A stretch of 29,749 nucleotides of DNA. Origin: Pseudaestuariivita sp. GTDB taxonomy: Bacteria > Pseudomonadota > Alphaproteobacteria > Rhodobacterales > Rhodobacteraceae. Numbering within the stretch: position 1 is the stretch's first letter; every line of letters begins with the position of its first letter. The notes under the pieces were generated by a model. That model ran no database searches. It worked only from the letters and a program-made list of their open reading frames with translations, and was not told where the DNA came from. Below, in pieces: positions 4,955 through 25,748 of this stretch. The position numbers and the translations under genes were made by a program. The stretch spans positions 2,106 through 31,854 of the forward strand of contig JAHDCH010000003.1 in NCBI GenBank assembly GCA_020629995.1. Direction: 5' to 3'.

Positions 4955-5008
4955 TTGGGAATGTCCTTTTCGCAATGCGCGGCTCGGGCGCTTGGCGGTG
5001 TGATCGGG

Positions 5009-5743: not shown

Positions 5744-5831
5744 AACATTTCCCCAATCTATGTCACAGTTAAATGCGCGGCCGCGCATGGTGTGGTCTTG
5801 GTGCTGTCAGGGATCGACCGGAGCGCCAGTG

Positions 5832-8170: not shown

Positions 8171-9913
8171 ATGCTGGGAGAGACGGTAGAACATGTGCGC
8201 AGCCTCACAGCCCGGCTGCTGGGGCTGCTGACCTTTGCCCTGTTTCCGCTCGCCCTGATTTCGCTGTACCAGACCCAGGCCGTCGTCGACGAGGCAGAGA
8301 ACCTGTCGCGCATCGCCCTGCGTGCCGAGACGGAACGCGCCGCCATCAACGAACGCAAGCTGCTCGAAGAGGCGTTTGGCGCGGCCAAGGCCTTGGGGTC
8401 CGCCGTGCGGACGTCAGCCGGCGGCGACGGCGCCTGCAGCGACATTCTGCGCCGGTTTGTCGCCGACAATCCCAACTTTATCTTTGCCGGTTTCATTCAG
8501 GCGAGCGGGATGATGAGCTGCGCGTCTCAGGGTGACCCGGTCGATTTCAGTGGCCGGCCAACCTGGACCGAAGCGGTCACCGACATCCGCCCACGTCTGC
8601 AGGCCAACACGTCAGGTGCGGTGACCAAACGGTCGGTCCTCATCGCCAGCCATCCCGTGTTTTCGGATGGACGGTTTGCAGGCTACCTGTCGATCTCGAT
8701 CCCGCATGATGTGTCGGAACAGATGATGCCGCAGTCCGCGCAGCGCGACGATTTCTGGCTGCTGACGCTGGGTCCTGACGGTTCGATCCTGTCCGCTTCG
8801 GGCGACGAGAGCATGATGGTCGACATTCTGCCTGCCGGGATAAGCCGGTCCGAGCTGTTTGGACGGGTCAATGCAGTCTTCAACGCGCCCAGCGGCGCGG
8901 GACCCAAACGCAAATATTCCGTCATTCCGATCTTCGACGGTCACGTCCACGCCGTCGGGTCGTGGCCTCTTGCATCAACGAAAAACAGCCTTGTCGGGCG
9001 CGGTGCCAGCGCGCCTTTGGTCTTTCCGATCCTCATGTGGCTTGTCGGGATCGCGGTTGCCTGGCTTGGCCTGCACAACCTGGTGATCCGGCACATCCGC
9101 GCCTTGCGCGACGCGATGCGCAGGTTCGCGCTTGGGGAACGCAACGCACCCCAATTGCGGCTGCAAAACCCGCCCGAAGAGCTGGCCCAGGCAGAACGGT
9201 CGTTCAACCGCATGGTCACGATCCTGACCGAAACCGAAGAGCGGCGCGAAGCGGATCTGCACGACAAGACCGTGCTGCTGCGAGAGGTGCACCACCGGGT
9301 CAAGAACAACCTTCAACTGATCGCCTCGATCACCAACCTGCAGATGCGCCACGTCCGCGCGCCCGAAACGCGCCGCGTGCTGGCCCAGCTGCAACGCAGG
9401 GTGCGCGGTCTCGCGACGATCCACCAGAAACTGTACACAACGCCTGACCTGACGACAGTCGACGCGCGCGAACTGGTCGAAAGCATGGTCGCGCAGATGG
9501 ACCAGATTGGCGGGCGCATCGACGAAGCTCCTGTGGTGACCACGCATCTGGACAGCGCGATGCTGTATCCCGACCAGGCCGTTCCCCTGTCGATGCTGCT
9601 GGCTGAAGCGCTGAACAATGCCTGGAAACATGCCGGCAGCTTTGATGGCGAAAGGGCCCGGCTTGAGATCCGGCTGACCCAGGACAGCGATGATATCCTG
9701 CAGCTGGTCATCGAAAACTCGCGCGGCCCGGACAAGATCGACGGCGATGCCGAAATTCCGGACGGCGACGGCCTTGGCACAACGCTGATGTCCGCATTCG
9801 TGTCGCAGCTTGAAGGCCAGAGCGACGTGGAAACCGGCGACGATTTCTATCGCCTCACGGTACGGTTCGCCGCCGCAGCCTTTGACGACAACGGCAGCGA
9901 TCCCGCCGCCTGA
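8171..9913 (+). CDS. Membrane HisKA_2/HWE-type sensor histidine kinase of the general stress locus
   Basis: A 580-aa inner-membrane kinase. TM1 lies at about residues 15-35. A periplasmic sensor domain of about 240 residues follows (double-PAS/Cache-like spacing, with YLSISIPHD and DGSILSASG). TM2 is at about 279-302 and a HAMP-like linker at about 303-355. The kinase core has H374 in EVHHRVKNNLQLIASI, the HisKA_2 signature, and ATP-site asparagines N482/N483 in LAEALNNAWKHA, with the G-box in GDGLGTTLM. Such PhyK-type kinases phosphorylate PhyR. The position directly after ecfG (14-base gap) supports PhyR as the partner. The two cysteines in the sensor domain might be relevant to sensing, but no ligand can be named. 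Confidence 0.9.
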   Translation: MLGETVEHVRSLTARLLGLLTFALFPLALISLYQTQAVVDEAENLSRIALRAETERAAINERKLLEEAFGAAKALGSAVRTSAGGDGACSDILRRFVADNPNFIFAGFIQASGMMSCASQGDPVDFSGRPTWTEAVTDIRPRLQANTSGAVTKRSVLIASHPVFSDGRFAGYLSISIPHDVSEQMMPQSAQRDDFWLLTLGPDGSILSASGDESMMVDILPAGISRSELFGRVNAVFNAPSGAGPKRKYSVIPIFDGHVHAVGSWPLASTKNSLVGRGASAPLVFPILMWLVGIAVAWLGLHNLVIRHIRALRDAMRRFALGERNAPQLRLQNPPEELAQAERSFNRMVTILTETEERREADLHDKTVLLREVHHRVKNNLQLIASITNLQMRHVRAPETRRVLAQLQRRVRGLATIHQKLYTTPDLTTVDARELVESMVAQMDQIGGRIDEAPVVTTHLDSAMLYPDQAVPLSMLLAEALNNAWKHAGSFDGERARLEIRLTQDSDDILQLVIENSRGPDKIDGDAEIPDGDGLGTTLMSAFVSQLEGQSDVETGDDFYRLTVRFAAAAFDDNGSDPAA

Positions 9914-9987: not shown

Positions 9988-9997
9988 TTGTATACAA
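9988..9997. promoter_or_regulatory. Candidate operator of the GntR/FCD regulator
   Basis: A perfect 10-bp palindrome, TTGTATACAA, lies 28 bases before the ATG of the GntR gene. FCD-subfamily GntR proteins commonly bind TTGTATACAA-like palindromes in front of their own operon. The 110-base stretch 9914-10024 otherwise holds only a weak hairpin. The site would control the whole catabolic operon. Confidence 0.65.
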
Positions 9998-10024
9998 TGT
10001 GTACGCAAAACCAAGCGAGTCGTG

Positions 10025-10732
10025 ATGCCCAAACTGTCCGCCAAAGAGCATTGCCTGAACGATTTGCGCCACCGGATCCTGATGGTCGATCTGGAGCCGG
10101 GCGCCGATCTTGATGAGGTGAGCCTTGCCGATCAATACGGCCTGTCGCGCACGCCCCTGCGCGAGGTGCTTCAGAGACTGGCCGGCAAGGGCCTTGTTGT
10201 TCTGCAGGCCAACCGGGGCGCCAAGGTCGCACCGATGGATCTGGCGACCATGCGCACGTTTTTCCAGACCGCGCCGCTGGTCTATGCCAACATCGCCCGC
10301 CTTGCCGCCGAGCTGCGCACCAGCAGCCAGCTGGACGACCTCAAGGCCGCGCAATCGGCATTTCTTGCGGGGACGCGGGCGCGCGACCCCGGCGCGACAG
10401 CGCTGGCCAACCACAGGTTCCACGCGGTGATCGGAGAGATGGCGCATAACCCGTATCTGTCCGCCGCTCTGGCGCGCCTGCTGATCGACCACACGCGCCT
10501 CAGCCAGACGTTCTATCGCCCGGCCTCGCCAGCGGAACAGGTGCTGGTGGTCAAGGCAAGCGACCAGCACGACGCGATGATTTCAGCCATCGAAGCGCAG
10601 GAGGCCGCGTTGGTCACCGACCTTACGCTTCAGCACTGGGACCTCAGCCGCGACCGGCTGGAGCGGTTCGTGCGTCCTGATCCGCTGCCGGTTGACGTGA
10701 TCTCTCTCAAGGACAAACGACATGCAGTTTGA
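10025..10732 (+). CDS. GntR-family (FCD subfamily) transcriptional regulator
   Basis: A 235-aa regulator. The N-terminal winged helix-turn-helix (about residues 5-70) contains DEVSLADQYGLSRTPLREVLQRLAGKGLV, the GntR signature. The all-helical FCD ligand domain (about 80-215) has the metal/ligand histidine pattern NHRFHAVIGEMAHNPYL and SDQHDAMISAIEA. Such proteins usually repress a catabolic operon until a carboxylate ligand binds. The ATG at 10025 is preceded in frame by a GTG at 10022; either could be used. Its end overlaps the DapA-family gene by 11 bases, so it is the first gene of the operon. It probably binds the palindrome at 9988-9997. Confidence 0.92.
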   Translation: MPKLSAKEHCLNDLRHRILMVDLEPGADLDEVSLADQYGLSRTPLREVLQRLAGKGLVVLQANRGAKVAPMDLATMRTFFQTAPLVYANIARLAAELRTSSQLDDLKAAQSAFLAGTRARDPGATALANHRFHAVIGEMAHNPYLSAALARLLIDHTRLSQTFYRPASPAEQVLVVKASDQHDAMISAIEAQEAALVTDLTLQHWDLSRDRLERFVRPDPLPVDVISLKDKRHAV

Positions 10733-11630
10733 GGGCATCTACACCCCGCTTGTGACCCCGTATCACGACGATTTCTCGCTGAACGAGTCCGCGCTTGCCG
10801 ACACGGTCGAACTGCTGATCGGCGCCGGCGTGCACGGGATCATCGTCGCGGGCACCACCGGCGAATATTACGCCCAGACCGCCGACGAGCGTATCCAGAT
10901 GATGACGCGGGTTCACGGCCTGATCGCGGGGCGCGTGCCCATGATCGTCGGCACTGGCGCGATCCGGACAGAGGATTCGGTGATGTATGCCGAACAGGCG
11001 GTGAAAGCCGGGGCGGACGCGCTGCTGATCGCCACCCCGCCCTATGCTTATCCCACGGGCCGCGAGATCGCGCTGCACGCGCTGGCCATCGACCGGGCCG
11101 CAAACCTGCCGGCGATGCTGTACAACTACCCCGGCCGCATGTCGGTGGACATGGATGAAGACTGCCTTGACCGGCTGGGCCGGTCACCCAATTTCCGCGC
11201 GATCAAGGAAAGCTCAGGCGACATCAACCGCCTGCACATGCTGGCGCGCGACTATCCTCATATCGGTTTGTCGTGCGGCATGGACGACCAGGCGCTGGAG
11301 TTCTTTGCCTGGGGCGCGCGCAGCTGGGTCTGCGCGGGGTCCAACTTTGCCCCCGAAGCCCACATCGCCCTGTATCGTGCCTGTGCGGTCGAGGGCGATT
11401 TCACAAAGGGCCGCGCGATCATGTCGGCGATGCTGCCGCTGATGCGGGTGCTCGAGCAAGGCGGGGCGTTTGTGCAATGCATCAAGCATGGCCTGACCAC
11501 CCGCGGCATCAACGCTGGCCCGCCACGCAAGCCTCTTCAGCCGCTGAACAAGGACGCCCGCCGCGAGCTGGAAGAGGTGATCCGCACCATGAACACCACC
11601 CTCCGCGCCATCGAAGGAGCGCTGACATGA
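10722..11630 (+). CDS. Dihydrodipicolinate synthase (DapA)-family aldolase/dehydratase
   Basis: A 302-aa TIM-barrel lyase of the DapA/N-acetylneuraminate-lyase superfamily. Visible active-site elements are TT in VAGTTGEY (residues 45-46), the tyrosine Y134 in LYNYPGR and Schiff-base lysine K162 in AIKESSGD. Members act on 2-oxo acids. In hydroxyproline catabolism a member deaminates 1-pyrroline-4-hydroxy-2-carboxylate to 2-oxoglutarate semialdehyde; others dehydrate keto-deoxy sugar acids. The next gene is an aldehyde dehydrogenase (4-nt overlap), which fits an aldehyde product. True DapA is unlikely because the operon is catabolic and the usual TLS motif after GTTGE is replaced by YAQT. The exact substrate is inferred only from context. 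Confidence 0.9.
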   Translation: MQFEGIYTPLVTPYHDDFSLNESALADTVELLIGAGVHGIIVAGTTGEYYAQTADERIQMMTRVHGLIAGRVPMIVGTGAIRTEDSVMYAEQAVKAGADALLIATPPYAYPTGREIALHALAIDRAANLPAMLYNYPGRMSVDMDEDCLDRLGRSPNFRAIKESSGDINRLHMLARDYPHIGLSCGMDDQALEFFAWGARSWVCAGSNFAPEAHIALYRACAVEGDFTKGRAIMSAMLPLMRVLEQGGAFVQCIKHGLTTRGINAGPPRKPLQPLNKDARRELEEVIRTMNTTLRAIEGALT

Positions 11631-13105
11631 CCGACCTTCTGACGCGCGCCGAATACGCCGCAATCGCCGCCGATCTCGATTTCCCGCGCACGCCGTTCAT
11701 CGACGGCAAGTTCCGCGCGGGCAGCGGCCCCACCATGGACACGCTGAACCCCGCCACGGGCGAGGTGCTGGCAACGATTGCCACGGCAGGGGCCGCAGAT
11801 GTGGATCTGGCGGTGCAAAAAGCCCGGGAGGCGTTTGATCAGGGCCACTGGTCCCGCGCCGATCCGGGGCACCGCAAGGACGTGCTGATCAAGCTGGTGA
11901 AATACATGACCCGCCGCCGGCGCGAACTGGCGGTGATGGAGTGTCTGGAAAGCGGCAAGCCGATCCGCGATTGCGAACAAATCGACCTGCCCGAGTCCAT
12001 GGCCTGCCTCAAATGGCACGCCGAGACCGCCGACAAGATCTATGACCAGACCGCGCCGGCGGGCGACGATGCCATCGCCATGGTGGTGCGCGAACCCATC
12101 GGGGTGGTGGCGGCGGTGCTGCCTTGGAACTTTCCACTGCTGATGATGGCATGGAAGATCGGGCCTGCGCTGGCCGCCGGGTGCAGCGTGATCGTGAAGC
12201 CCGCCGAACAGACCAGCATGACCGCCCTGCGGGTGGCCGAGCTGGCGCATATGGCGGGCGTGCCCCGCGGCGTGCTGCAGGTCTTGCCGGGCGATGGCCC
12301 GAGCGTGGGCGAGCCGCTGGGGCGGCACATGGACGTGGATATGGTGACGTTCACCGGCTCGACCGAAACAGGAAAGAGGTTCCTGACCTATGCGGGCGAG
12401 AGCAACCTGAAGAAAGTCACGCTGGAATGCGGAGGCAAGAACCCCGCCGTGGTCCTGGACGATGCCGAAAACCTCGACCATGTGGCCGAGCATGTGGTGA
12501 ACGCCGCGTTCTGGAACATGGGCGAAAATTGCAGCGCCGCGTCCCGGCTGATCGTGCACAAGGCAGTCAAGGCCCCCCTGATGGAGCGGATCGAGGCGCG
12601 ACTGCGCGATTGGAAAACGGGTGATCCGCTGGACCCCGCAAACCATCTGGGCGCGCTGATCGACGCCGGGCATTGCAAGAAGGTCGCCGGGTATTTGGCC
12701 AAGGGGGACGCGGCCGACGGGCCTTATATCACCCCCAAAGTGTATGAGGTCGCCAAGGATGATCCCAAGGCAACGGACGAGATTTTTGGTCCGATCCTGT
12801 CGGTGATCGAAGTCGCCTCGACCGACGAAGCGATCGCTGTTGCCAATGACACCACCTATGGGCTCGCCGCGAGCGTGTTCACAGCGCACGCGCGCACCGC
12901 CCTGCGCGCCGCGCGCGACATCCGGGCGGGCACCGTGACGGTCAACTGCTATGGCGAAGGCAACCTCGCCACACCCTTTGGCGGGTACAAGCAATCGGGC
13001 TTTGGCGGGCGCGACAACGGCGCACACGCGCATGACCAATACACCGAGCTCAAGACCATCTGGGTTGATCTGAGCGATCCCAAGGATGGCGACAATGTGG
13101 GCTGA
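11627..13105 (+). CDS. NAD(P)-dependent aldehyde dehydrogenase, PuuC-like
   Basis: A 492-aa aldehyde dehydrogenase. The cofactor and catalytic residues are in classic positions: N168 (LPWNFPL), K191 (KPAEQ), FTGSTETGK (residues 242-250), general base E267 (TLECGGKNP) and nucleophile C302 (GENCSAAS). The C-terminal PFGGYKQSGFGGRDNG block is typical. The overall pattern is nearest to the gamma-glutamyl-gamma-aminobutyraldehyde dehydrogenase (PuuC) group, with the REPIGVV and GRHMDVD blocks. In this operon it would oxidise the aldehyde made by the DapA-family lyase; 2-oxoglutarate semialdehyde is the attractive guess. The start overlaps the preceding stop (ATGA). A repeat element separates it from the MttB gene 94 bases downstream. 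Confidence 0.93.
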   Translation: MTDLLTRAEYAAIAADLDFPRTPFIDGKFRAGSGPTMDTLNPATGEVLATIATAGAADVDLAVQKAREAFDQGHWSRADPGHRKDVLIKLVKYMTRRRRELAVMECLESGKPIRDCEQIDLPESMACLKWHAETADKIYDQTAPAGDDAIAMVVREPIGVVAAVLPWNFPLLMMAWKIGPALAAGCSVIVKPAEQTSMTALRVAELAHMAGVPRGVLQVLPGDGPSVGEPLGRHMDVDMVTFTGSTETGKRFLTYAGESNLKKVTLECGGKNPAVVLDDAENLDHVAEHVVNAAFWNMGENCSAASRLIVHKAVKAPLMERIEARLRDWKTGDPLDPANHLGALIDAGHCKKVAGYLAKGDAADGPYITPKVYEVAKDDPKATDEIFGPILSVIEVASTDEAIAVANDTTYGLAASVFTAHARTALRAARDIRAGTVTVNCYGEGNLATPFGGYKQSGFGGRDNGAHAHDQYTELKTIWVDLSDPKDGDNVG

Positions 13106-13116
13106 GCAACGGCAAA

Positions 13117-13180
13117 GATGGGTGAAATCACCCATCCTACAACGCGCACCGATCCGTAGGATGGGTGCTTGCACCCATCT
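13117..13180. repeat. REP/BIME-like double hairpin
   Basis: Two short palindromes lie back to back. GATGGGTG-aaat-CACCCATC occupies 13117-13136, and GATGGGTGC-tt-GCACCCATC occupies 13160-13179 with one spare base. They are joined by a perfect outer inverted repeat, CACCCATCCTAC (13129-13140) versus GTAGGATGGGTG (13156-13167). GTAGGATGGGTG-type units are widely scattered in bacterial genomes as REP elements. This one fills the only sizeable gap in the operon (13106-13198) and may stabilise the upstream mRNA or attenuate the genes downstream. Confidence 0.85.
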
Positions 13181-13198
13181 GCTGCGAGGAGCCCGCAC

Positions 13199-14749
13199 AT
13201 GAGCGTCGAAGCCAGAGGCACGACCCGCCGGGGACGCGGTGCGCGCAAGGCCAGCAGGGTCGCCTTTGACACCACGATGCTGCCTGCCCTGCACCGCAAG
13301 CTGCCGCTGACGGAACCGATGGATCGCGAACAGATCGAAAAAATCGACGCCGCCTCCATGCACATACTGGAAAATGTCGGCGTGCAGTTTCGCGACGAGA
13401 TCGCGTTGGCTGATTGGAGGCGCGCGGGCGCGAAGGTCGACGGAGAGATGGTCTATCTGGACCGCCACCACGTACGCGAACTGATCGCCACCATCCCCGA
13501 AACCTTTACCTACCACGCTCGCGACCCGCAAAAGTCGCTGCCGTTCGGCCGCGACCACGGCATGTTCATCCCTATGACCGGCGCGCCCTATCTGCGCGAC
13601 TTGCAGGACGAACGCCGCAACCCGACGCTGGATGACCTGGCGATGTTTCACAAGCTGGCGCATATGCTGCCGGCGATGCATTCCTCGGCCCACCACATAG
13701 TCGAGCCCTATGACCATCCGATCAGCCAGCGGCATCTGCGGATCACCTATTCGTCGATGAAGCATTCCGACAAGACGTTCATGGGCATGACCACAAGCCC
13801 CAAGAACGCCGAAGACGTGATCGACATGTGCGCGATCCTGTTCGGTGAAGAGTACATCGACACGCACCCCGTGGTGACCGGCAATTGCAACGGCAACTCG
13901 CCGTTGGTCTGGGACGAGACGATGCTGGGCGCGATGCGCGCCTTCTGCAAACGGAACCAGCCGGTGCTGTGCTCGCCCTTTGTGCTCGGCGGGGCCAACA
14001 CGCCCGCGTCTGTCGCACCCACGGTCGCACAACTGAACGCTGAAGCGCTGAGCGCGCTTGCCTATACCCAAGTGATCCGCAAAGGCGCGCCTGCGATCTA
14101 TGGACACTACCTGTCCACCGTCAGCATGAAATCCGGAGCACCGATGGCTGGCACGCCCGAGATCAGCCTGATGAATTTCATGATCGGTCAGATGGCGCGC
14201 TTTTACGGCGTGCCCTGGCGCACGTCGAACACGCTGGGCGGGGCCAAGACCTTTGACGCCCAAGCCGGGTATGAATCCGCCATGACCCTGAACGCGGTCC
14301 TGATGGCAGGCGCCAATTACATGTGGCACAGCGCAGGCTGGAACGAAGCCGGGATGCATTGCAGCACCGCCAAGTTCGTCGTGGATGCCGAGATGTGCGC
14401 CATGGGCTACCGCATGGCCGAAGGCGTGCGCTGGGACGATTTCGACGAAGCGCTGGCGGCCGTTGGCGATATCGGCCCCGGGGGGCATTACCTCGGCCAT
14501 CCGCACACGCTTGAAAATTTCCAGCGGGCGTTTTTCATGCCCGAGATGTTCGACAACAACTCGATCGAGCAATGGGTGGCCGAAGGCAGCATATCGATCA
14601 CCGAGCGCGGGCTGAAACGGGCGCACGACCTTCTTGCGGCCTATGAAGAGCCAAAGCTGGACGAAGGCGTCGACGAGGCCCTGAGAGACTACATCGCCCG
14701 GCGCGAGCGCGAGATCCCCGCGGCAGACGCGCTTAATCAGGAGCACTAG
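13199..14749 (+). CDS. MttB-family (trimethylamine methyltransferase superfamily) protein without pyrrolysine
   Basis: A 516-aa TIM-barrel protein of the MttB superfamily. Recognisable blocks are the N-terminal IEKIDAASMHILENVGVQF, YLRDLQDERRNPTLDDL, HSSAHHIVEPYD, the central GNCNGNSPLVWDE and LGGANTPASVAPT, and the C-terminal FNM-type segment ANYMWHSAGWNEAGMH. Non-pyrrolysine members demethylate quaternary amines such as glycine betaine, proline betaine or carnitine, passing the methyl group to a corrinoid protein. The reading frame contains no internal amber codon. GAGGAG upstream of the ATG at 13199 fixes the start. The stop is TAG, directly abutting the next ATG. No corrinoid protein or second methyltransferase gene is in the window, so its methyl acceptor is unknown. 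Confidence 0.9.
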   Translation: MSVEARGTTRRGRGARKASRVAFDTTMLPALHRKLPLTEPMDREQIEKIDAASMHILENVGVQFRDEIALADWRRAGAKVDGEMVYLDRHHVRELIATIPETFTYHARDPQKSLPFGRDHGMFIPMTGAPYLRDLQDERRNPTLDDLAMFHKLAHMLPAMHSSAHHIVEPYDHPISQRHLRITYSSMKHSDKTFMGMTTSPKNAEDVIDMCAILFGEEYIDTHPVVTGNCNGNSPLVWDETMLGAMRAFCKRNQPVLCSPFVLGGANTPASVAPTVAQLNAEALSALAYTQVIRKGAPAIYGHYLSTVSMKSGAPMAGTPEISLMNFMIGQMARFYGVPWRTSNTLGGAKTFDAQAGYESAMTLNAVLMAGANYMWHSAGWNEAGMHCSTAKFVVDAEMCAMGYRMAEGVRWDDFDEALAAVGDIGPGGHYLGHPHTLENFQRAFFMPEMFDNNSIEQWVAEGSISITERGLKRAHDLLAAYEEPKLDEGVDEALRDYIARREREIPAADALNQEH

Positions 14750-15853
14750 ATGCGCCTCACCCGAGCCACGCTCTGGACAAGGGACTTGCCGGTCGTCGGC
14801 GGGCCGTATGTCTACGCAGGCGCCACGCACGACGCCCTGACAACCCTGATCCTGCGGTTGGAAACGGATACCGGGCTGACCGGATGGGGCGAAAGCTGTC
14901 CGTTGGGCGCGACCTATGCACCCGCCTTTCCCGAAGGCGTGGCCGCGGCCCTGCGCCGCCTCACCCGCGCGCTGATGGGGGCCAAGGCTCTGCCCCGCCC
15001 GGCCGCCGTGCGGATGGAGGCCGAAATGATGGGCCAGCCGCAGGCGAAGGCAGCCGTGGACATCGCGCTCTGGGACATTCTGGGCAAGGCGACAGGCCAG
15101 CCCGTGCACGCCTTGCTGGGCGGCGCGCTCCGAGACCGGATCCCCAGCTATTTTGCCGTGGGGCTGATGGACCCGGACGCCACCGCGGCCAAGGTCGCCG
15201 CTGTCGCCGCCGAAGGGTACACAGCCGTCCAGCTCAAGATCGGCAGCGGCGATGTCGCCCGCGATGCGGCATGCCTGCACGCGGCGCACAAAGCGCTGCC
15301 AAAAGGCGTGACGCTGACAGCAGACGCAAACCGCGCGCTGACGGTCGGCGATGCGATGCACCTGTCGCGTTTGACCGCCGATTTGCCCATCGCGCTGGAA
15401 CAGCCCTGCGCCACGCGGGCCGAATTGCGCGATCTGGCCGGCAAGATCGCGCACCCGATCTACTGGGACGAAGCGACCGAGGACCTGGCGCTGACCATGG
15501 ACGCGCTGGCGCGGGGCCATGCGCAGGGCCTTGGAATGAAGATCACCCGCGTCGGTGGCATTTCGGCCATGCTCGCCGTGCGCGACATGGCCGCCGCACG
15601 CAGGGTGCCGATGTCGGTCGACGATCACTGGGGCGGCGACATCATCGCCGCTGCCTGCGTGCATCTGGGCGCGACGGTGGCACCTGACCTGTTTCGCGGC
15701 ACGTGGCTCGCGCAGCCTTACGTGGCGCACCACTATGGCGCGACGGGCCCGACAATCTCGGGCGGGTGGATTGATGTTCCCCAAAGCCCCGGTCTTGGGG
15801 TCACACCAGACCCGGCGCGTTTGGGCCAGCCAACATTCGAGGTGACGGCATGA
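14750..15853 (+). CDS. Enolase-superfamily (MR/MLE) racemase, probable proline/hydroxyproline-betaine 2-epimerase
   Basis: A 367-aa mandelate-racemase/muconate-cycloisomerase-type enzyme. Two opposed catalytic lysines are visible: K163 (QLKIG) and K264 (GMKITRVGG). Metal ligands fit D192 (ADAN), E217 (ALEQPC) and D240 (YWDE). W294 in DDHWGGDIIAAAC matches the tryptophan of the Pelagibaca hydroxyproline-betaine epimerase HpbD that packs on the quaternary ammonium by cation-pi contact. The start (LPVVGGPY), YAPA and GLGVTPD blocks also resemble HpbD as I recall it. Two-lysine geometry argues for 1,1-proton transfer (epimerisation) rather than dehydration. It abuts the MttB stop without a gap; the ribosome site CAGGAG lies inside that gene's end. 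The substrate class is well supported; the exact betaine is not. Confidence 0.88.
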   Translation: MRLTRATLWTRDLPVVGGPYVYAGATHDALTTLILRLETDTGLTGWGESCPLGATYAPAFPEGVAAALRRLTRALMGAKALPRPAAVRMEAEMMGQPQAKAAVDIALWDILGKATGQPVHALLGGALRDRIPSYFAVGLMDPDATAAKVAAVAAEGYTAVQLKIGSGDVARDAACLHAAHKALPKGVTLTADANRALTVGDAMHLSRLTADLPIALEQPCATRAELRDLAGKIAHPIYWDEATEDLALTMDALARGHAQGLGMKITRVGGISAMLAVRDMAAARRVPMSVDDHWGGDIIAAACVHLGATVAPDLFRGTWLAQPYVAHHYGATGPTISGGWIDVPQSPGLGVTPDPARLGQPTFEVTA

Positions 15854-16566
15854 GCGATTTGAGCGGACAGGTCGCGCTGGTGACGGGTGCCATGGGCGGC
15901 ATCGGCCAAGCGATCACGGCAGCCCTGCGAACAAAAGGCGCGACCGTGGTCACCACCGACCGCAGCGGAAGCGACATGGACGGAGATCTGACCGACGCCG
16001 CCTTTTGCGATGGACTTCCCGCGCGGGTCGCGCAGGCACATGGGCGGCTGGATATCCTTTGCAACAACGCCGGCATCATCACGCGCGGCAAGATCACCGA
16101 AGCCTCCGATGACGACCTGGCGCGCAGCCTCGCCGTCAATGTCGAGGCGCCGTTCCGTCTGTGCCGCGCCGCCATCCCGATCATGGCGGCGCAAGGCAAA
16201 GGCGCCATCGTCAACACTGCGTCCTGCTGGGGTGTGCACCCCGGCCCGAACCACCCGATCTACATCATGACCAAGGCGGCAGTCGCTTCGCTGACCCAGT
16301 GCCTGGGCCGCGATCACGCGCATCAGGGCATCCGCGTGAATGCCGTCTGCCCGAATGAGGTGGATACGCCCATGCTGCGCACAGGATTTGCCACACGCGG
16401 TCTCGACCCGGCAACCGCAATTGCCGATCTGGACGCCAGCGTTCCTTTGGGGCGCATCGCGCAACCTCAGGACATTGCGGATGTCGTTGCCTTCCTGGTC
16501 TCGGATGCCGCGCGCTACATGTGCGGCGCGCTAGTCGAGGTGAATGGCGGAAAGCCCGTCACATGA
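15850..16566 (+). CDS. Short-chain dehydrogenase/reductase (first of two)
   Basis: A 238-aa classical SDR. It has the cofactor motif TGAMGGIG (residues 12-19), the NNAG motif, catalytic serine in NTASCWG and the YxxxK pair in IYIMTKAA, and ends EVNGGKPVT. An aspartate-type acidic residue after strand 2 (TTDRSGSD) suggests NAD+ preference. The ATG overlaps the epimerase stop (ATGA) and its own stop overlaps the next SDR (ATGA), so it is tightly coupled. In the operon it would oxidise a secondary alcohol, for instance a ring hydroxyl, or act on a downstream hydroxy acid. Its substrate cannot be read from the sequence. Confidence 0.92.
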   Translation: MSDLSGQVALVTGAMGGIGQAITAALRTKGATVVTTDRSGSDMDGDLTDAAFCDGLPARVAQAHGRLDILCNNAGIITRGKITEASDDDLARSLAVNVEAPFRLCRAAIPIMAAQGKGAIVNTASCWGVHPGPNHPIYIMTKAAVASLTQCLGRDHAHQGIRVNAVCPNEVDTPMLRTGFATRGLDPATAIADLDASVPLGRIAQPQDIADVVAFLVSDAARYMCGALVEVNGGKPVT

Positions 16567-17279
16567 CCTTGGCGGGCAAAATAGCCTTGGTGACCGGGGC
16601 TTCGTCCGGGATGGGTGCGGCGACGGCGCGGATGCTGGCCGCGCGTGGCGCGCGGGTCGTGACAGCGCAACGGCGTCGCGCCGGGTACGAAGATGTCGAG
16701 GTGGATCTGATGGACGCCGCAGCACCAGAACGCGTGATCGCGCGGCTGGACCGGCTGGACATCCTGATCAACTGCGCGGGCATGATGCTGGAAGGCACCG
16801 TGGAAGAAACCAGCATCGAGGAATGGCACGCGCAGCTGCACCTCAACCTCACCGTTCCGTTCCTGTTCATCCGCCATGCAATGCCGCTTTTGCGTCAATC
16901 ACGCGGCGCGATCGTCAACGTGGGCAGCATCGAAGGGCTGGGGAACAATCCCCGTCATCCGGCCTATGGCGCCTCCAAGGCCGGGCTGCACGGGCTGACG
17001 CGCGCGGTGGCGGTGGATCACGGACCGGACGGCGTGCGCTGCAACGCCGTCGCACCCGGCTGGATCGACACCCCGCTGAACGAGGACTTCATCGCGTCGA
17101 TGCCCGAGCCCGCGCGATTTCGCGCAAAAATTCGGGACGTTCACCCGCTGCGCCGCACGGCCGCGCCCGCAGAGGTGGCGGAACTGATCTGCTGGCTGGC
17201 CTCGGACGCGGCATCATTCGTGACGGGGCAGGTCTATACAATCGACGGCGGGCGCACGGCCCAGCTGCCATTGCCATGA
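16563..17279 (+). CDS. Short-chain dehydrogenase/reductase (second of two)
   Basis: A 238-aa classical SDR, a diverged paralogue of its neighbour. It has TGASSGMG near residue 12, NCAG (a variant of NNAG), catalytic serine in NVGSIEG, and YGASK as the catalytic YxxxK. It closes with QVYTIDGGR, standard for the family. The segment after strand 2 reads TAQRRRA, basic and without the acidic residue, which suggests NADP(H) rather than NAD, unlike its partner. Both ends overlap neighbours by four bases. Two SDRs with different apparent cofactor preference in one operon might run an oxidation and a reduction, or an epimerisation by oxidation and re-reduction. The substrate is unknown. Confidence 0.92.
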   Translation: MTLAGKIALVTGASSGMGAATARMLAARGARVVTAQRRRAGYEDVEVDLMDAAAPERVIARLDRLDILINCAGMMLEGTVEETSIEEWHAQLHLNLTVPFLFIRHAMPLLRQSRGAIVNVGSIEGLGNNPRHPAYGASKAGLHGLTRAVAVDHGPDGVRCNAVAPGWIDTPLNEDFIASMPEPARFRAKIRDVHPLRRTAAPAEVAELICWLASDAASFVTGQVYTIDGGRTAQLPLP

Positions 17280-18604
17280 TCGCGCCGCCCACAGATCCCG
17301 GCCCCGCAGCCTGGGCCCGCCTGCTGCCACCAGCGCCAGGGCGCGCGCCGCTGAGCGGGCGTCAGACAGCCGACTGGCTGATCGTCGGGGCGGGGTTTGC
17401 CGGGTTGGCTGCGGCCTACCGGCTCAGCCAGCTGCATCCCGGCGACCGCATCACTCTGGTCGAGGCAAAGGAGATCGCCGAAGGGCCTGCGGGCCGCAAT
17501 TCGGGGTTCATGATCGACCTGCCGCATGATCTGGCGTCAACCGACTACGCCGGGCAACTGGCCCGTGACCGCGCGACAACCAAAGACAACCGGCGCGCCA
17601 TCGCGCTGGCCGCCGAAATGGCAAAGACCTTTGCCTTGCCCACCGAAGCCTTTGATCCCTGCGGCAAGGTCAACGGCGCGGCCACGGCCAAGGGCACGCA
17701 GCACAACCGTGACTATGCCGCGCACCTGACCCGAATGGGTGAGACGCACCAGATGCTGGATGCTGCCGACATGCGCGCGTTGACCGGCACCACCTATTAT
17801 CAATCCGGACTGTTCACCCCCGGCACTGTCATGCTGCAACCGGCGATGTTCGTGCGCGGCGTGGCCGAGGGCCTGTGTTCGAACCGGGTGCAGATTTTCC
17901 CGGGCAGTCCAGTCACCGCATTGCAGCAAGAGGGCGACGGGTGGCGGGCGGACACGCCCGGCGGCAGCATCACCGCGCCGCGCGTGATCCTTGCGGTCAA
18001 CGGACATGCCGAAGCCTTTGGGCATGGCGCGGGCCGGCTGGTGCATGTGCACACCTATGCGTCCATGACGCGCCCGCTGACCAAAGACGAAACCGAACGA
18101 CTGGGCGGCGCAGCCCGCTGGGGGATCACCCCGGCAGACCCGCTGGGCACCACGGTGCGGCGTATTTCCGGCACCGGCGGCGACAGGCTGATCATTCGCA
18201 ACCACGTCACCTACGATCCCGCGCGCGCCGCGCCTCACGGATGGGAAGCCGCGATCACCCGCCGCCACGACGCCAGCTTTGCGGCCCGGTTTCCCATGCT
18301 GGCCGACGTGCCGATGGAACACCGCTGGGGCGGGCGTTTGTGCCTTGCCCTGAACGGCACGCAGATGGTGGGTGAGGCCGCGCCGGGCCTGTGGACCGCC
18401 TGCGTGCAGAATGGGCTTGGGACGGTGCGCGGCACTCTGGCCGGGCTGCTGGCGGCCGAAGGCGCCTCGGGCGTGGCCTCACCCGCGCTGACCCGCGCTC
18501 TGGACGCGGATGCCCCCAAGCGCCTGCCGCCGGGGATCATTGCGACGCCTGTCGCACGCGCGCGCCTGTGGTGGGGTCAGGCCCGGGCCGGCCGCGAGCT
18601 TTAA
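17276..18604 (+). CDS. FAD-dependent amino-acid/amine oxidase (DAO family, PuuB-like)
   Basis: A 442-aa flavoprotein of the DAO/glycine-oxidase fold. After a proline-rich N-terminal extension it has DWLIVGAGFAGLAAAYRLS (about residues 36-55, GxGxxG FAD motif) and an acidic E in LVEAKEI. The GRNSGFMIDLPHD block is characteristic of gamma-glutamylputrescine-oxidase-like proteins. The C-terminal flavin contact reads LCLALNGTQMVGEAAPGLWTACVQNGLGTVRGT. Members oxidise a C-N bond: D-amino acids, N-methyl amino acids or alkylamines. In this operon it would act on the epimerised, demethylated D-amino acid or remove an N-methyl group oxidatively. It is the last gene of the operon; its stop overlaps the convergent malonyl-CoA synthetase gene by four bases. 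Confidence 0.9.
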   Translation: MIAPPTDPGPAAWARLLPPAPGRAPLSGRQTADWLIVGAGFAGLAAAYRLSQLHPGDRITLVEAKEIAEGPAGRNSGFMIDLPHDLASTDYAGQLARDRATTKDNRRAIALAAEMAKTFALPTEAFDPCGKVNGAATAKGTQHNRDYAAHLTRMGETHQMLDAADMRALTGTTYYQSGLFTPGTVMLQPAMFVRGVAEGLCSNRVQIFPGSPVTALQQEGDGWRADTPGGSITAPRVILAVNGHAEAFGHGAGRLVHVHTYASMTRPLTKDETERLGGAARWGITPADPLGTTVRRISGTGGDRLIIRNHVTYDPARAAPHGWEAAITRRHDASFAARFPMLADVPMEHRWGGRLCLALNGTQMVGEAAPGLWTACVQNGLGTVRGTLAGLLAAEGASGVASPALTRALDADAPKRLPPGIIATPVARARLWWGQARAGREL

Positions 18605-20106
18605 CCGGTAAAGAGCGCCTTCAGCTCGTCACGCAAAGCGGCCTTTTGCACCTTGCCCATCGTGTTGCGTGGCAAGGCCTGCCGCATCACGTAGGCGCGC
18701 GGGTGTTTGAACCGCGCAAGCGCATTGGCGCAGGCGTCAGACAGCGCGGCTTTGTCCGCGCCGCCGTCCGATGCGATGACCGCGACAACTGTTTCGCCCA
18801 GGTCCGGATGCGGCACGCCGATCACGGCGCTTTCGATCACCCCGGCTTGGGCGTCCAGCACTTCTTCGACTTCTTTGGGATAGACATTGAACCCGCCCGA
18901 GATGATCAGATCCTTGCCCCGGCCCACGATCGTCACATAGCCATCAGCGCCCTGCACCCCCAGATCGCCGGTGATGAAAAATCCGTCGGCCCGTAGCTCG
19001 GCCGCGGTTTTGTCGGGCATCTGCCAATAGCCGCCAAAGACGTTGGGGCCACGCACCTCGATCACGCCGATCTCGCCATGCGGCAGCTCGGTGCCATCTG
19101 CGTCGCAGACTTTCAGCTCGACCCCCGGGAGGGGCAGGCCGACCGTTCCGGCGCGGCGCTCGCCCTCGTAGGGGTTCGAGGTGTTCATGTTGGTTTCGGT
19201 CATGCCGTAGCGTTCGAGGATCCGGTGACCGGTGCGCGCCTCGAACTCGGCATGCGTTTCGGCAAGCAGTGGCGCGCTGCCCGATACGAACAGGCGCATG
19301 TGCCCGGCGAGGTCTGCGTCAAACCGCGGATCCCCCAGCAAGCGGGTGTAGAAGGTCGGAACGCCCATCATGACCGTGGATTGCGGCAATCCGGCGATCA
19401 TTGCATCCAGATCAAAGCGCGGCAGATAGATCATCTGCGCCCCACAGGCGAGGCAGACGTTGGTGGCAACAAACAGGCCATGGGTGTGAAACACCGGCAG
19501 CGCATGCAACAGCACATCCGATTGCGCAAAGCGCCACGCCGCTGCCAGCGTGAGGGCATTGGACAGCAGGTTGCCCTGGCTCAGCATCGCGCCTTTGGAG
19601 CGCCCCGTCGTCCCCGACGTGTACAGGATCGCGGCCAGATCCTCGTTGGTCCGTGCCACGGGCGTGATGCTGGTGGGCAGATCGGTCGCGCCATCGGCAA
19701 AACTGCCCGCTCCGCCTGCGTCCATCGTTTCGATCCGCGCGCCGGCGCGGGCGGCAACGGCGGCCAGCGCGTCGGCCTGGCCCGGATCGCAGATCACCAG
19801 CCGCGCGCCGCTGTCGCCGATGAAATAGTCCAGCTCGGCCGGGGTATAGGCGGTGTTCAGCGGGATCAGAACCACGCCGGTCGCCACGCAGGCGGCATAC
19901 AGCGCCAGCCCCTCGGGTGATTTTTCCACCTGCAGCGCCAGACGATCACCGGGCTCAAGGCCCAGCCCGTTCAGCCGGTGCGCGAACTGCGCCGCCATCA
20001 TCAAAAACGCGCCATAGCTCAGCACGCCGCCATCGGGCGTGGCAAGGAACGGTGCGCGGCTGCCGGTGTGGACAGCAAACAGGCGGTCGTAAAGAGGGTT
20101 GGTCAT
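18601..20106 (-). CDS. matB: Malonyl-CoA synthetase (MatB-like acyl-CoA synthetase)
   Basis: A 501-aa ANL-superfamily adenylate-forming ligase. The P-loop-like motif is AILYTSGTTGRSKGA. The A5 motif is LERYGMTETNM, which in MatB enzymes helps select the small dicarboxylate malonate. A7/A8 reads FFITGDLGV...GRGKDLIISGGFNVYPKEVEE and the C-terminal catalytic lysine lies in NTMGKVQKA. It converts malonate, ATP and CoA to malonyl-CoA, AMP and PPi. The length fits characterised MatB proteins (about 500 aa). GCAGGAGA upstream of the ATG at 20106 fixes the start. Malonyl-CoA decarboxylase (matA) is not beside it, so malonyl-CoA probably goes to fatty acid synthesis or a remote decarboxylase. Methylmalonate is a possible second substrate. 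Confidence 0.85.
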   Translation of the reverse strand: MTNPLYDRLFAVHTGSRAPFLATPDGGVLSYGAFLMMAAQFAHRLNGLGLEPGDRLALQVEKSPEGLALYAACVATGVVLIPLNTAYTPAELDYFIGDSGARLVICDPGQADALAAVAARAGARIETMDAGGAGSFADGATDLPTSITPVARTNEDLAAILYTSGTTGRSKGAMLSQGNLLSNALTLAAAWRFAQSDVLLHALPVFHTHGLFVATNVCLACGAQMIYLPRFDLDAMIAGLPQSTVMMGVPTFYTRLLGDPRFDADLAGHMRLFVSGSAPLLAETHAEFEARTGHRILERYGMTETNMNTSNPYEGERRAGTVGLPLPGVELKVCDADGTELPHGEIGVIEVRGPNVFGGYWQMPDKTAAELRADGFFITGDLGVQGADGYVTIVGRGKDLIISGGFNVYPKEVEEVLDAQAGVIESAVIGVPHPDLGETVVAVIASDGGADKAALSDACANALARFKHPRAYVMRQALPRNTMGKVQKAALRDELKALFTG

Positions 20107-20226
20107 GGCGGTCTCCTGCGGCAGGGCGGCGGCGCTGCGCCCTATGGTGATGCGACGCCGCGCAGCAGAGGTAAAGAGGCGCGTTTGGGTTTGACGCAAT
20201 GCGCACAGCCGGGCACCGTGCGCCCC

Positions 20227-21273
20227 ATGGACTATTTCGCGAACCCGCACCGCCCCGCCGGCCTGACTGGCCTTGACGATGTTCCCTACCCCAGCACGGA
20301 TGCGGCCCGCGTCGCAGAACGGCTGGCCCGGTGCCCCCACGCCGCCGCCACCCCGCTGACCGCGCTGCCGGACCTGGCGCAAGAGCTGGGCGTTGCGCAG
20401 CTGCATGTCAAAGACGAACGCGGCCGCATGGGGCTGGGCAGTTTCAAGGCGCTGGGTGCGGCTTATGTCATCGCCTGCGATGCCGAAACCGGAGATGCAC
20501 GCGGCGCGACCTACATCACCGCAAGCGCGGGCAACCATGGCCTGTCTGTCGCCGCGGGGGCGCAGGCCTTCGGAGCCGCCGCACACGTCTACCTGTCCGA
20601 AACGGTGCCCGAAAGCTTTGCCGAGCGCTTGCGGGGCCTTGGCGCGACGGTCGTGCGCGCGGGCAGCACCTATGAGGAAAGCATGCAGGCCGCGCTGGAC
20701 GCGCGCGAGGCGGACCCAAGCCTGCGGCTGTTGTCCGACACCTCCTGGCCTGGCTACACCGAACGGCCCTGGCGGCTGATGGAAGGCTATGTTGCCTTGA
20801 TGGCCGAAGCGATCGCCGAGATCGACGCAGCGCCAACGCATATCTTCCTGCAGGCGGGTGTTGGAGGTCTGGCAGGGGCCGCGGCGGCCATGGCGCGCAA
20901 GGCCTGGGGCGACGCGCCGCATATCGCGGTTGTCGAGCCCGAAGCCGCCCCAGCACTGATCGCATCGGCCCGCGCAGGACGTTCGGTGGTGACCACCGGG
21001 CCGGTGTCGGCGATGGGCAGGCTTGACTGCAAAGAGCCGTCGCTGATCGCGCTGAAGGGGCTGACGCGGGACGCGGACAGCTTTGTAACGCTGACCGAAG
21101 CCGAAGGGGACGCGGGCGCGGAAAAGATCGCTCGGGCCGGGATGCCTGCCTCGCCATCGGGCGCAGCGGGCTTTGCCGCCCTATGCGCAGCGGATGGCGC
21201 GATGAGGGAAGCGCTTGGCCTGAGCGCGGCATCGCGCGTCATGGTGATCCTCAGCGAAGGGCCCGCCGCGTGA
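20227..21273 (+). CDS. PLP-dependent ammonia-lyase, diaminopropionate ammonia-lyase-like
   Basis: A 348-aa fold-type II PLP enzyme. The Schiff-base lysine is in GLGSFKALGAAY, the carboxylate-binding loop is TASAGNHGLSVAAG, and a glycine-rich phosphate cup reads LQAGVGGLAGA. The N-terminal YFANPH and the SFKALG spacing resemble diaminopropionate ammonia-lyase (DpaL) more than threonine dehydratase, but it is about 50 residues shorter than DpaL. Threonine/serine dehydratase or hydroxyaspartate dehydratase activity are alternatives. It diverges from matB across 120 bases without a clear promoter match. It is coupled by a GTGA overlap to the racemase-family gene, suggesting that the two act in one pathway on an amino acid. 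The ribosome site is weak. Confidence 0.8.
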   Translation: MDYFANPHRPAGLTGLDDVPYPSTDAARVAERLARCPHAAATPLTALPDLAQELGVAQLHVKDERGRMGLGSFKALGAAYVIACDAETGDARGATYITASAGNHGLSVAAGAQAFGAAAHVYLSETVPESFAERLRGLGATVVRAGSTYEESMQAALDAREADPSLRLLSDTSWPGYTERPWRLMEGYVALMAEAIAEIDAAPTHIFLQAGVGGLAGAAAAMARKAWGDAPHIAVVEPEAAPALIASARAGRSVVTTGPVSAMGRLDCKEPSLIALKGLTRDADSFVTLTEAEGDAGAEKIARAGMPASPSGAAGFAALCAADGAMREALGLSAASRVMVILSEGPAA

Positions 21274-22025
21274 GCACCCTGCCCTATCGGCTTGAAGAAA
21301 CGCCGGGCGCGCGACTGGGGCTGATCGTTCTGCAATCGGACGAAACGGTCGAGGACGAGATGCGCGCTTTGCTGCCTGCATCGGCCCGGCTGATGGTCAG
21401 CCGCGTGCCTTCGGGGCTCGAGGTGACACCAGAGACCCTGGCCGAGATGCAAGGCCACCTGACACGCGCGGCAGAGCTTTTCCCACGCGGCTATGCCTTT
21501 GATGCGGTGGGCTATGCCTGCACGTCGGGCAGCGCCGTGATCGGGTCAGGCGCGGTCGCCGATCTGATCCGGCAGGGCACCGCGACGCGCGCGGCGACCA
21601 ACCCGGCGGCGGCATTGATCGCCGCCTGCCGCGCGGCAGGCGTCACGCGGCTGGGGCTGGTTTCGCCATATGTCGAGGACGTGTCCGCCCGTCTGCGTGA
21701 CGTGCTGCAGGAGGCTGGCATCGCCACCCCCGCGTTTGGATCGTTCAATGAAGCATCCGAGGCGGCAGTTGCCCGGATCGATGCATCCTCGGTGATTGCG
21801 GCGGCGCGCGAGGTGGCAGCGCAGGCACCGGTGCAGGCCGTGTTCCTGTCCTGCACCAATCTTCGGACAGTGCCTGTCCTGGCCTCGCTGGCCACGACGC
21901 TGGGGGTGCCTGTCTGGTCCAGCAATCTTGTGCTGGCGTGGCACCTGGCACGAGAGGGGCGCGCAATCCCGCACCACGCGCAGCCGCACGATCTGCTTGT
22001 TCCGCCTCAGGCGGCCGAGATCTGA
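21270..22025 (+). CDS. Asp/Glu racemase / maleate isomerase family protein
   Basis: A 251-aa protein of the Asp/Glu-racemase superfamily. The two halves each present a catalytic-type cysteine: YACTSGSAVIG (about residue 85) and FLSCTNLRT (about residue 193). The first matches the maleate cis-trans isomerase and arylmalonate decarboxylase subgroup (CTSGS) better than true amino-acid racemases (CNTA). The start is a GTG overlapping the stop of the lyase gene (GTGA); upstream in-frame codons lie inside that gene. Given the PLP lyase partner and the malonyl-CoA synthetase across the divergent gap, roles such as amino-acid racemisation, maleate isomerisation or malonate formation are possible, but none is shown. 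It overlaps the convergent ggpS gene by 19 bases. Confidence 0.82.
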   Translation: MSTLPYRLEETPGARLGLIVLQSDETVEDEMRALLPASARLMVSRVPSGLEVTPETLAEMQGHLTRAAELFPRGYAFDAVGYACTSGSAVIGSGAVADLIRQGTATRAATNPAAALIAACRAAGVTRLGLVSPYVEDVSARLRDVLQEAGIATPAFGSFNEASEAAVARIDASSVIAAAREVAAQAPVQAVFLSCTNLRTVPVLASLATTLGVPVWSSNLVLAWHLAREGRAIPHHAQPHDLLVPPQAAEI

Positions 22026-23500: not shown

Positions 23501-23521
23501 GCGCGGGGCTCCTTTGATGGG

Positions 23522-25452: not shown

Positions 25453-25508
25453 ACGGTGTCGCCTTTGCGGTGTCTGAAGCCCGGTGTGTACCGTGATTAT
25501 GCCTGCAA

Positions 25509-25534
25509 AACACGCAAGACAGGCGCTTTGTTCC
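25509..25534 (-). promoter_or_regulatory. Candidate sigma-EcfG promoter of the gpsA-HAD-ggpS operon
   Basis: On the minus strand GGAAC (25534-25530), a 17-base spacer and TGTT (25512-25509) give a one-mismatch match to GGAAC-N16/17-CGTT. The -10 surroundings (CTTGCGTGTTTT) closely resemble the nepR-side promoter (CTTGCGTGTTTG). The predicted start lies about 50 bases before the gpsA ATG. Confidence 0.5.
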
Positions 25535-25574
25535 CCGCGCAGGCGCAGAAAATTGCTGCAACTGCAAAAAGATC

Positions 25575-25600
25575 GGAACCCGGGGCACGCCAATCGCGTA
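25575..25600 (+). promoter_or_regulatory. Weak sigma-EcfG-like match upstream of galU
   Basis: GGAAC (25575-25579), a 17-base spacer and CGTA (25597-25600) differ from the consensus at the last base. It points towards galU, whose ATG is about 150 bases away, and mirrors the gpsA-side candidate. The rest of the 296-base divergent region (25453-25748) shows nothing else I can name apart from the galU ribosome site. Confidence 0.3.
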
Positions 25601-25748
25601 AGATTTTCATAAATGCACACGGGGATTTCCCGCCGCATACCACCTGCTGCCGCCTGTGATTTGTGGGATCGAAACCTTTGGGGTGCATCACATCTGCATG
25701 GACGCGACGCATGGTATCGGCGCGGCCCCACGAAGGAGAAACCAAGCA

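Follow-up and report, generated by a model that had tools for sequence, protein, structure and literature searches.

An operon of eight co-directional genes (positions 10025-18604, +) in a 29,749-nucleotide stretch of DNA from Pseudaestuariivita sp. (contig JAHDCH010000003.1; the whole stretch is referred to below as the window) probably serves the catabolism of a quaternary pyrrolidine betaine, the most likely substrates being stereoisomers of 4-hydroxyproline betaine. That it is a betaine operon, in which demethylation relies on a corrinoid protein encoded elsewhere in the genome, appears very likely. The genes encode, in order, a GntR regulator, a DapA-family enzyme, an aldehyde dehydrogenase (ALDH), an MttB-family methyltransferase, an enolase-superfamily epimerase (MLE), two short-chain dehydrogenases (SDR1 and SDR2) and an FAD-dependent oxidase. 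From this gene content, the conservation of a core, the phylogeny of the epimerase, the corrinoid genes of the genome and the linkage of MttB to HpbD-type genes, we infer both the substrate and the individual catalytic steps.

In the proposed pathway, the MLE would epimerise the betaine at C2, as its position in the tree and a tryptophan, W319, suggest. The MttB-family protein would transfer a single N-methyl group to an MtgC-type corrinoid protein encoded elsewhere, from which it would pass to tetrahydrofolate, and the FAD oxidase would oxidise the N-methyl or free imino acid so produced. Opening and deamination of the pyrroline would fall to the DapA-family enzyme, and the ALDH would yield 2-oxoglutarate. 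The two SDRs, one oxidising and the other reducing, may invert or remove the ring hydroxyl and thereby admit more isomers into the core, a role suggested by their paired presence.

Operon layout and conserved core

Five of the seven gene junctions overlap by 4-11 bases, the stop codon of the MttB gene abuts the start of the MLE gene, and a gap of 93 bases separates ALDH from MttB. The GntR/FCD transcriptional regulator (10025-10732, +) has an ATG start and scores over the cut-offs of PF00392 and PF07729. It is followed by the DapA-family lyase/deaminase (10722-11630, +; PF00701, 200 bits), which carries the motifs GTTGE at 44, YNYPGR at 134 and IK162ESSG and keeps the Schiff-base lysine K162, and by the ALDH (11627-13105, +), with the motifs ENC and LECGG and a PF00171 score of 504 bits on the longer open reading frame 11273-13105. 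The MttB-superfamily methyltransferase (13199-14749, +) matches PF06253 with 704 bits (cut-off, 25) and contains no in-frame stop; the putative HpbD-like betaine 2-epimerase (14750-15853, +) carries both the N- and C-terminal MR_MLE domains. SDR1 (15850-16566, +; PF13561) and SDR2 (16563-17279, +) are 39% identical to each other and share 3uxy as best PDB match (337 and 150 bits, respectively). The last gene encodes an FAD-dependent amine/imino-acid oxidase of the glycine/sarcosine oxidase fold (17276-18604, +), for which PF01266 (DAO) was detected on the longer open reading frame 16544-18604.

These gene classes, in this order and on one strand, are those named in the original prediction, which was made from the letters alone, and their arrangement goes beyond chance. 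Conservation was analysed at the loci of the best 80 of 573 confirmed MttB relatives (79-95% identity, mostly from Rhodobacterales), 27 of which are cut near the cluster by contig ends and 53 uncut. At the thresholds used, a five-gene core, GntR-DapA-ALDH-MttB-FAD oxidase, was complete in 46 of the 53 uncut loci; it runs in one direction in 44 of these, while in two the MttB gene is turned against the other four. The remaining uncut loci lack GntR only (five loci) or hold MttB alone (two loci).

The other genes of the operon are optional modules on this stable core. The SDR pair was found in 20 of the uncut loci; over all 80 loci, both SDRs occur in 31 and SDR1 alone in one. An MLE gene is present in four of the 53 uncut loci and in five overall, so that the core evidently works without an epimerase, which has been either gained by the core or lost from it. 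All five of these MLEs are 57-71% identical to Paracoccus pantotrophus HpbD and thus nearer to it than the window MLE (44%). The nearest relative, Pseudaestuariivita atlantica (L007; MttB 95% identical), has the same operon without the MLE gene.

Two further gene types appear at some loci. A cytochrome P450 gene lies directly before the SDR pair in seven of the 80 loci (L017, L018, L037, L041, L050, L055 and L083), always together with both SDRs; the seven P450s are 73-80% identical to the L018 copy and may hydroxylate the ring. In 12 of the 80 loci, a P5CR-family gene stands directly before MttB, in the ALDH-MttB position. None of these gave an alignment above 60 bits to the P5CR-like genes of P. 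pantotrophus or Aminobacter, and the likeness is therefore claimed at the level of the family only.

In terms of regulation, a double palindrome, TTGTATACAA-TGTATACAA, recurs upstream of GntR: a match of at least 15 of 21 positions was present in 54 of 62 related loci, compared with 11 of 600 segments of 350 bases drawn at random from these loci, a comparison somewhat favourable to the motif since the consensus was derived from the loci that were scored. Within the window the motif is matched best (17 of 21) at 9988-10008 (+) by TTGTATACAATGTGTACGCAA, a likely operator, where GntR would be predicted to act. The ALDH-MttB gap (13106-13198, +) can form a hairpin (minimum free energy -44.3 kcal/mol, z -5.5). 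A different, longer and near-perfect hairpin lies in the ALDH-MttB gap of P. atlantica (9908-10000 of L007, z -13.1).

The epimerase and the linkage of MttB to HpbD-type genes

The window MLE scored 328-329 bits with the PDB entries 2pmq/4h2h, 4e8g lying likewise within 324-329 bits, and 223 bits with 4mgg; we take the first three to be HpbD and 4mgg to be a cis-3-hydroxyproline dehydratase. The record of a P. pantotrophus gene grouping with 4e8g names it hpbD, 4-hydroxyproline betaine 2-epimerase. Among the best 120 of 368 protein matches, 42 relatives (P0002-P0043) were 50-62% identical to the window MLE, and the rest were at most 49% identical.

A maximum-likelihood tree of 77 sequences was rooted at the midpoint; the relatives in it were sampled (every second of P0002-P0042 and every sixth of P0044-P0116). 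In this tree the window MLE belongs to a clade of its own, with 22 sequences (100/100 support), while 2pmq, 4e8g and the P. pantotrophus gene fall into an HpbD clade of 25 (99/96). An unresolved fork joins the window clade, the HpbD clade and a pair from Aminobacter and Mesorhizobium. Fourteen sequences resembling cis-3-hydroxyproline dehydratases, at which the program warned of long branches, are split from the betaine-epimerase side with 100/100 support.

The original prediction had assigned the enzyme to the betaine epimerases by two lysines, K163 and K264, and a tryptophan, W294. All three stand at exactly those positions, but they are not specific to HpbD and were rejected as proof of it. 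In groups set by hand before counting (22 window-clade, 41 HpbD-like and 14 other sequences), K163 and K264 occur in 77 of 77, including the non-betaine relatives, and W294, present in 63 of 63 betaine-side sequences, also appears in 11 of the 14 others. The discriminating residue is W319 (motif GTWLAQPY), found in 63 of 63 betaine-side sequences versus none of the 14 others, and presumably responsible in HpbD for binding the quaternary nitrogen. The conclusion drawn earlier thus stands for a different reason, W319 and the tree. A grouping with dehydratases, which would have spoken against it, did not occur with respect to the cis-3-hydroxyproline-dehydratase-like sequences; sugar-acid dehydratases were compared by score only. 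Judged by sequence, the window enzyme is HpbD-like, on the betaine-epimerase side, and not HpbD itself. An AlphaFold2 model of it (pLDDT 93) superimposed on 4h2h chains with TM-scores of 0.93-0.96; since other members of the subgroup reach 0.94, the fold alone cannot separate HpbD from its subgroup.

With five candidates scored per genome at E 1e-90, the window MLE found a match in one of 385 genomes of the class, namely its own, and no match above 46% was obtained besides its own in the 248 genomes of the family.

Orthologues of the window MttB (E 1e-200 or better, 75-95% identity) were detected in 64 of 247 other genomes of the family (65 of 248 including its own). HpbD-type genes (E 1.3e-85 or better; the next group begins at 6e-69) define 13 genomes besides its own among the 248. 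Twelve of these 13 carry the MttB orthologue, versus 52 of the remaining 234 (one-sided Fisher test, p 4e-7, own genome excluded and kinship between genomes uncorrected). The prediction had proposed a survey of the neighbourhood of the MttB-epimerase pair. This MttB lies within ~5 kb at 8 of the 14 HpbD-type loci and is the next recognised gene in seven. Loci of Cereibacter, Leisingera, Roseovarius and Roseibium show it linked to HpbD-clade genes.

Replicons of several genera illustrate the linkage. Plasmid pB of Cereibacter sphaeroides 2.4.1 carries, side by side, proX with an ABC transporter, GntR-DapA-ALDH-FAD oxidase and MttB-MLE-SDR1-SDR2; its MttB is 79% identical to that of the window, and its MLE falls in the HpbD clade (77% to P. 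pantotrophus hpbD). Similarly, the same gene set lies beside proX, with four of its genes broken, on pSymA of Sinorhizobium meliloti AK57 (L089). In this decaying cluster the coding sequences of ALDH, FAD oxidase, MttB, MLE and a GlxA-family regulator each extend over two or more frames, while those of GntR, DapA, the two SDRs and the proX transporter are open. MttB-MLE also accompany the DapA-ALDH-FAD oxidase trio on Mesorhizobium and Leisingera plasmids. About 12 kb from MttB-MLE on the Mesorhizobium plasmid MesoLj131c2 (L092), at the edge of the region analysed, there is a gene (L092 1-21) annotated as a cobalamin-dependent protein. In Paracoccus denitrificans, FAD oxidase-ALDH-DapA is accompanied by LysR and a betaine ABC transporter, with no MttB in that region. 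A single run of genes in Aminobacter contains an MttB (50%), a substrate-binding protein, a B12-binding protein, an MLE, a flavoprotein of the OYE type and a P5CR-like gene; the MLE is 43% identical to the window enzyme and 57% to HpbD, and the flavoprotein is 32% identical to HpbA.

MttB, remote corrinoid genes and Rieske enzymes

As regards a possible orthology with the glycine betaine enzyme MtgB, the window MttB scored 357 bits with the PDB entries 2qne/9yce, less than its 476 bits with 4yyc; it has no in-frame amber codon, which places it in the non-pyrrolysine branch. None of the eight operon genes encodes a corrinoid protein. The source assembly (2.83 Mb in 378 contigs) is 70% complete, and absences from it therefore carry little weight. 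On contig C284 it encodes an MtgC-type corrinoid protein, 81% identical to the Aminobacter protein and truncated by the contig end, beside a gene of the betaine--homocysteine-methyltransferase type (MtgE-like), and on contig C20 a corrinoid activase of the RACo type. An MtgC-type gene is present in all 14 genomes tested, i.e., the 13 of HpbD type and its own. The Aminobacter B12 protein had no match (thresholds, E 1e-12 and half of its length) at any of the 80 loci, which fits a model with a single remote MtgC. Three further MttB paralogues, 30-41% identical to the window MttB, occur on contigs C33, C55 and C210 of the same assembly, and the C55 copy abuts an aldehyde dehydrogenase gene.

The original prediction had envisaged a corrinoid-independent or remote-corrinoid enzyme and had considered either unusual in an aerobe when coupled to an epimerase in one transcript. 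The MtgC-type and RACo genes make the remote version possible, and independence from corrinoid need not be invoked. Nor would such an enzyme be without precedent: a remote MtgC serves glycine betaine demethylation in the aerobe Ruegeria pomeroyi (PMC12478193). The same paper reports up to seven PF06253 open reading frames per genome, which may serve other methylated compounds (PMC12478193).

The prediction also held that Rieske demethylases are missing and that MttB takes their place. A Pfam scan of 20 open reading frames of the window (part of its total) revealed no Rieske gene, nor is there one in the operon itself, and matches to the HpbB-type Rieske enzyme in its own assembly reached at most 32% identity. 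Among the 14 genomes, an HpbB-type gene (called at 55% or more) was present in six, five of which also carry MttB and one of which (G117) does not; MttB alone was found in eight, and no genome lacked both. From these counts, MttB can stand in for the Rieske enzyme or beside it, and the best reading of the sequences is that MttB replaces or supplements the Rieske demethylase, rather than being a strict replacement. A 114-kb contig of genome G051, which is taken as C. sphaeroides, matches pB (L088/L136) and carries an HpbB-type Rieske gene (59%) together with the MttB-HpbD cluster.

Substrate, alternatives and genomic setting

The three enzyme classes that complete the operon correspond to those of the published hydroxyproline route, i.e., a DAAO-family oxidase, a DHDPS-family deaminase and KGSA dehydrogenase (PMC4113996); the original prediction had noted counterparts for the later enzyme classes of the Pelagibaca pathway. 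The AlphaFold2 model of the FAD oxidase (pLDDT 87.5) is closest in fold to glycine oxidase, L-proline dehydrogenase and sarcosine oxidase; a shared fold shows no function, and the model would fit an N-methyl or free ring imino acid as substrate. Hydroxyproline betaine and proline betaine are present in marine plankton (PMC11965087). Homarine was dropped as a candidate substrate, since the literature searched gave no gene-level link.

Several observations weigh against a pathway for hydroxyproline betaine as proposed. There is no transporter gene among the eight of the operon, and most relatives lack the epimerase. The HpbD clade excludes the window MLE, which is 43-49% identical to the HpbD-like sequences (44% to P. 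pantotrophus HpbD), so that its substrate may differ. The DapA-family enzyme is only 27% identical to an S. meliloti DapA that we take to be HypD, its locus, with proline-racemase genes, being presumably the hydroxyproline (hyp) locus. Both types coexist in genomes G053 and G193, and orthology with the S. meliloti enzyme was rejected on these two grounds. The nearest NCBIfam models of the ALDH are PuuC and betaine-aldehyde dehydrogenase, none over its cut-off, and not those for oxoglutarate semialdehyde; its role as a 2-oxoglutarate semialdehyde dehydrogenase is accordingly only a supposition. Five of the 14 genomes, the one taken as C. sphaeroides among them, hold both the HpbB-type Rieske gene and MttB. 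Finally, MtgC also serves methionine synthesis (PMC12478193), so that its presence makes use by the window MttB possible rather than proven. Considered as a reference for a characterised DapA, the 4HypE-like locus of G051 (region L164) proved to contain no recognisable DapA, ALDH or FAD oxidase of the window types.

Since the DapA-family enzyme diverges from the S. meliloti type and coexists with it, its substrate may be an N-methylated pyrroline. HpbA, an N-methylproline demethylase, is absent from the window operon and has no match at E 1e-100 in its own incomplete assembly. HpbA homologues lie near only two of the 80 loci (L017 and L031), that of L017 (46%) inside the operon, and one is linked in G193 as well. 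Over the 14 genomes, HpbA-type genes (E 1e-100) are missing from the window's own genome and from G045 and G139, which are 100% and 96% complete; conversely, their presence elsewhere in the other 11 genomes counts against the idea. Carried further, it gives a tentative and rather improbable scheme in which isomers of hydroxyproline betaine are degraded by a modular route that depends on B12 and is widespread among marine Rhodobacterales. Here MttB would remove one methyl group only, the FAD oxidase would directly oxidise the ring still bearing its N-methyl group, and the DapA-family enzyme would release methylamine, not ammonia, with no second demethylation of the HpbA type; the SDR pair would be a C4 epimerase and the MLE the C2 epimerase, channelling the stereoisomers into a single core.

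A cyclic betaine without the 4-hydroxyl group, such as proline or pipecolate betaine, is a less probable substrate, with the MLE as its racemase and DapA and ALDH serving a different later intermediate. Paracoccus HpbD reportedly racemises proline betaine too, the best NCBIfam match of the FAD oxidase is the pipecolate oxidase model AmaA (111 bits, far below its cut-off of 600), and P450 and P5CR-family genes accompany some relatives. Proline and pipecolate routes, however, are not known to need a DapA-ALDH pair. Such a pair is what a hydroxylated pyrroline leads to in the published pathway (PMC4113996).

Somewhat less probable still is a core whose substrate is an acyclic betaine, such as gamma-butyrobetaine, beta-alanine betaine or a carnitine-like compound, and to which the MLE and SDRs were later added for side substrates. 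The absence of an epimerase from 49 of the 53 uncut relatives, the PuuC and betaine-aldehyde likeness of the ALDH and the demethylation of such betaines by MttB relatives in anaerobes (PMC12478193) would agree with it. The same MttB, however, is linked to HpbD-clade genes in the four genera listed above and, in L017 and G193, to homologues of HpbA, and DapA with a proline/sarcosine-oxidase-like flavoprotein suits a ring imino acid better.

It is very improbable that the MLE is a cis-3-hydroxy-L-proline or sugar-acid dehydratase in an operon unrelated to betaines: the cis-3-hydroxy-L-proline dehydratase model (NF043002) is its best NCBIfam match, but the score of 261 bits is under the cut-off of 500, P. 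pantotrophus HpbD itself reaches 245, and the enzyme lies outside that group with full support and carries W319. Least probable of all is an MttB that dispenses with a corrinoid protein or acts as a sensor, which would accord with the lack of a corrinoid gene in the operon and of an Aminobacter-type B12 protein at the 80 loci, but not with the MtgC-type gene in every genome tested, the MtgE-like and RACo genes of its own assembly and the remote MtgC published for glycine betaine in R. pomeroyi (PMC12478193).

The reading preferred here, catabolism of 4-hydroxyproline betaine isomers, has parallels in several known systems. The Hpb pathway of Pelagibaca and Paracoccus (HpbD, the oxygen-dependent Rieske enzymes HpbB/C, and HpbA) was reportedly described by Zhao in 2013 and Kumar in 2014. 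It resembles the window operon in drawing on the betaine 2-epimerase side of the enolase superfamily, in the FAD oxidase, DapA and ALDH classes and in the betaine ABC transporters that occur in the operon's relatives. The window differs in having MttB and a presumed remote corrinoid for Rieske enzymes, an epimerase of a neighbouring clade, an SDR pair and no HpbA in the operon. Eubacterium limosum, an anaerobe unlike the organism studied here, has an MtpB system that presumably includes neither an epimerase nor downstream ring degradation. Demethylation of a pyrrolidine betaine by an MttB-superfamily protein is common to both, for proline betaine in E. limosum (cited in PMC12478193) and as proposed for the window.

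The MtgBCD system of R. pomeroyi (PMC12478193) is similar in its aerobic marine Rhodobacterales host, its PF06253 protein, an MtgC elsewhere in the genome with an MtgE-like gene beside it, and an activase; in contrast, the context of the window operon points to a ring betaine. The FAD oxidase/DapA-family/ALDH trio is shared with trans-4-hydroxy-L-proline catabolism (4HypE, c4Hyp oxidase, DHDPS-family deaminase and KGSA dehydrogenase; PMC4113996), from which the window differs in a DapA that is not the S. meliloti orthologue and in an epimerisation proposed to act on the betaine, by an enolase-superfamily enzyme. Among the papers listed in literature searches, none links HpbD with an MttB-family protein, although Kumar 2014 could already mention the C. 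sphaeroides gene. That paper, in mBio, reportedly deals with proline betaine in Paracoccus and R. sphaeroides. Two known systems are joined in a combination not found in print by these searches, aerobic remote-corrinoid MttB being already known for glycine betaine (PMC12478193).

The operon is flanked on the left by a PhyK-like histidine kinase (8171-9913, +) and on the right by a malonyl-CoA synthase (18601-20922, -), neither of which looks related to it. The kinase and a PhyR-like response regulator (6510-7325, -), both of the general stress response type, lie immediately upstream of the operon. Further to the right, a glycerol-3-phosphate dehydrogenase (24313-25749, -) precedes a GT20 glycosyltransferase and an S6PP/HAD phosphatase (22007-24316, -), likely a pair for trehalose or glucosylglycerol synthesis, and further to the left a formate/nitrite transporter adjoins a Crp-type regulator (4127-5788, -). 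An antisense open frame of 1415 codons (11537-15784, -) opposite ALDH, MttB and MLE is presumed to be a shadow frame produced by GC-rich codons.

These observations tie one uncharacterised PF06253 paralogue of marine Rhodobacterales to a likely substrate class, and the occurrence of MttB beside HpbD yields a direct prediction for the culturable C. sphaeroides 2.4.1. With its SDR pair and an epimerase from a separate clade, the operon also hints at how several stereoisomers might be handled by a single gene cluster. If the proposed pathway is correct, the breakdown of ring betaines in the ocean would depend on cobalamin, as does the demethylation of glycine betaine.

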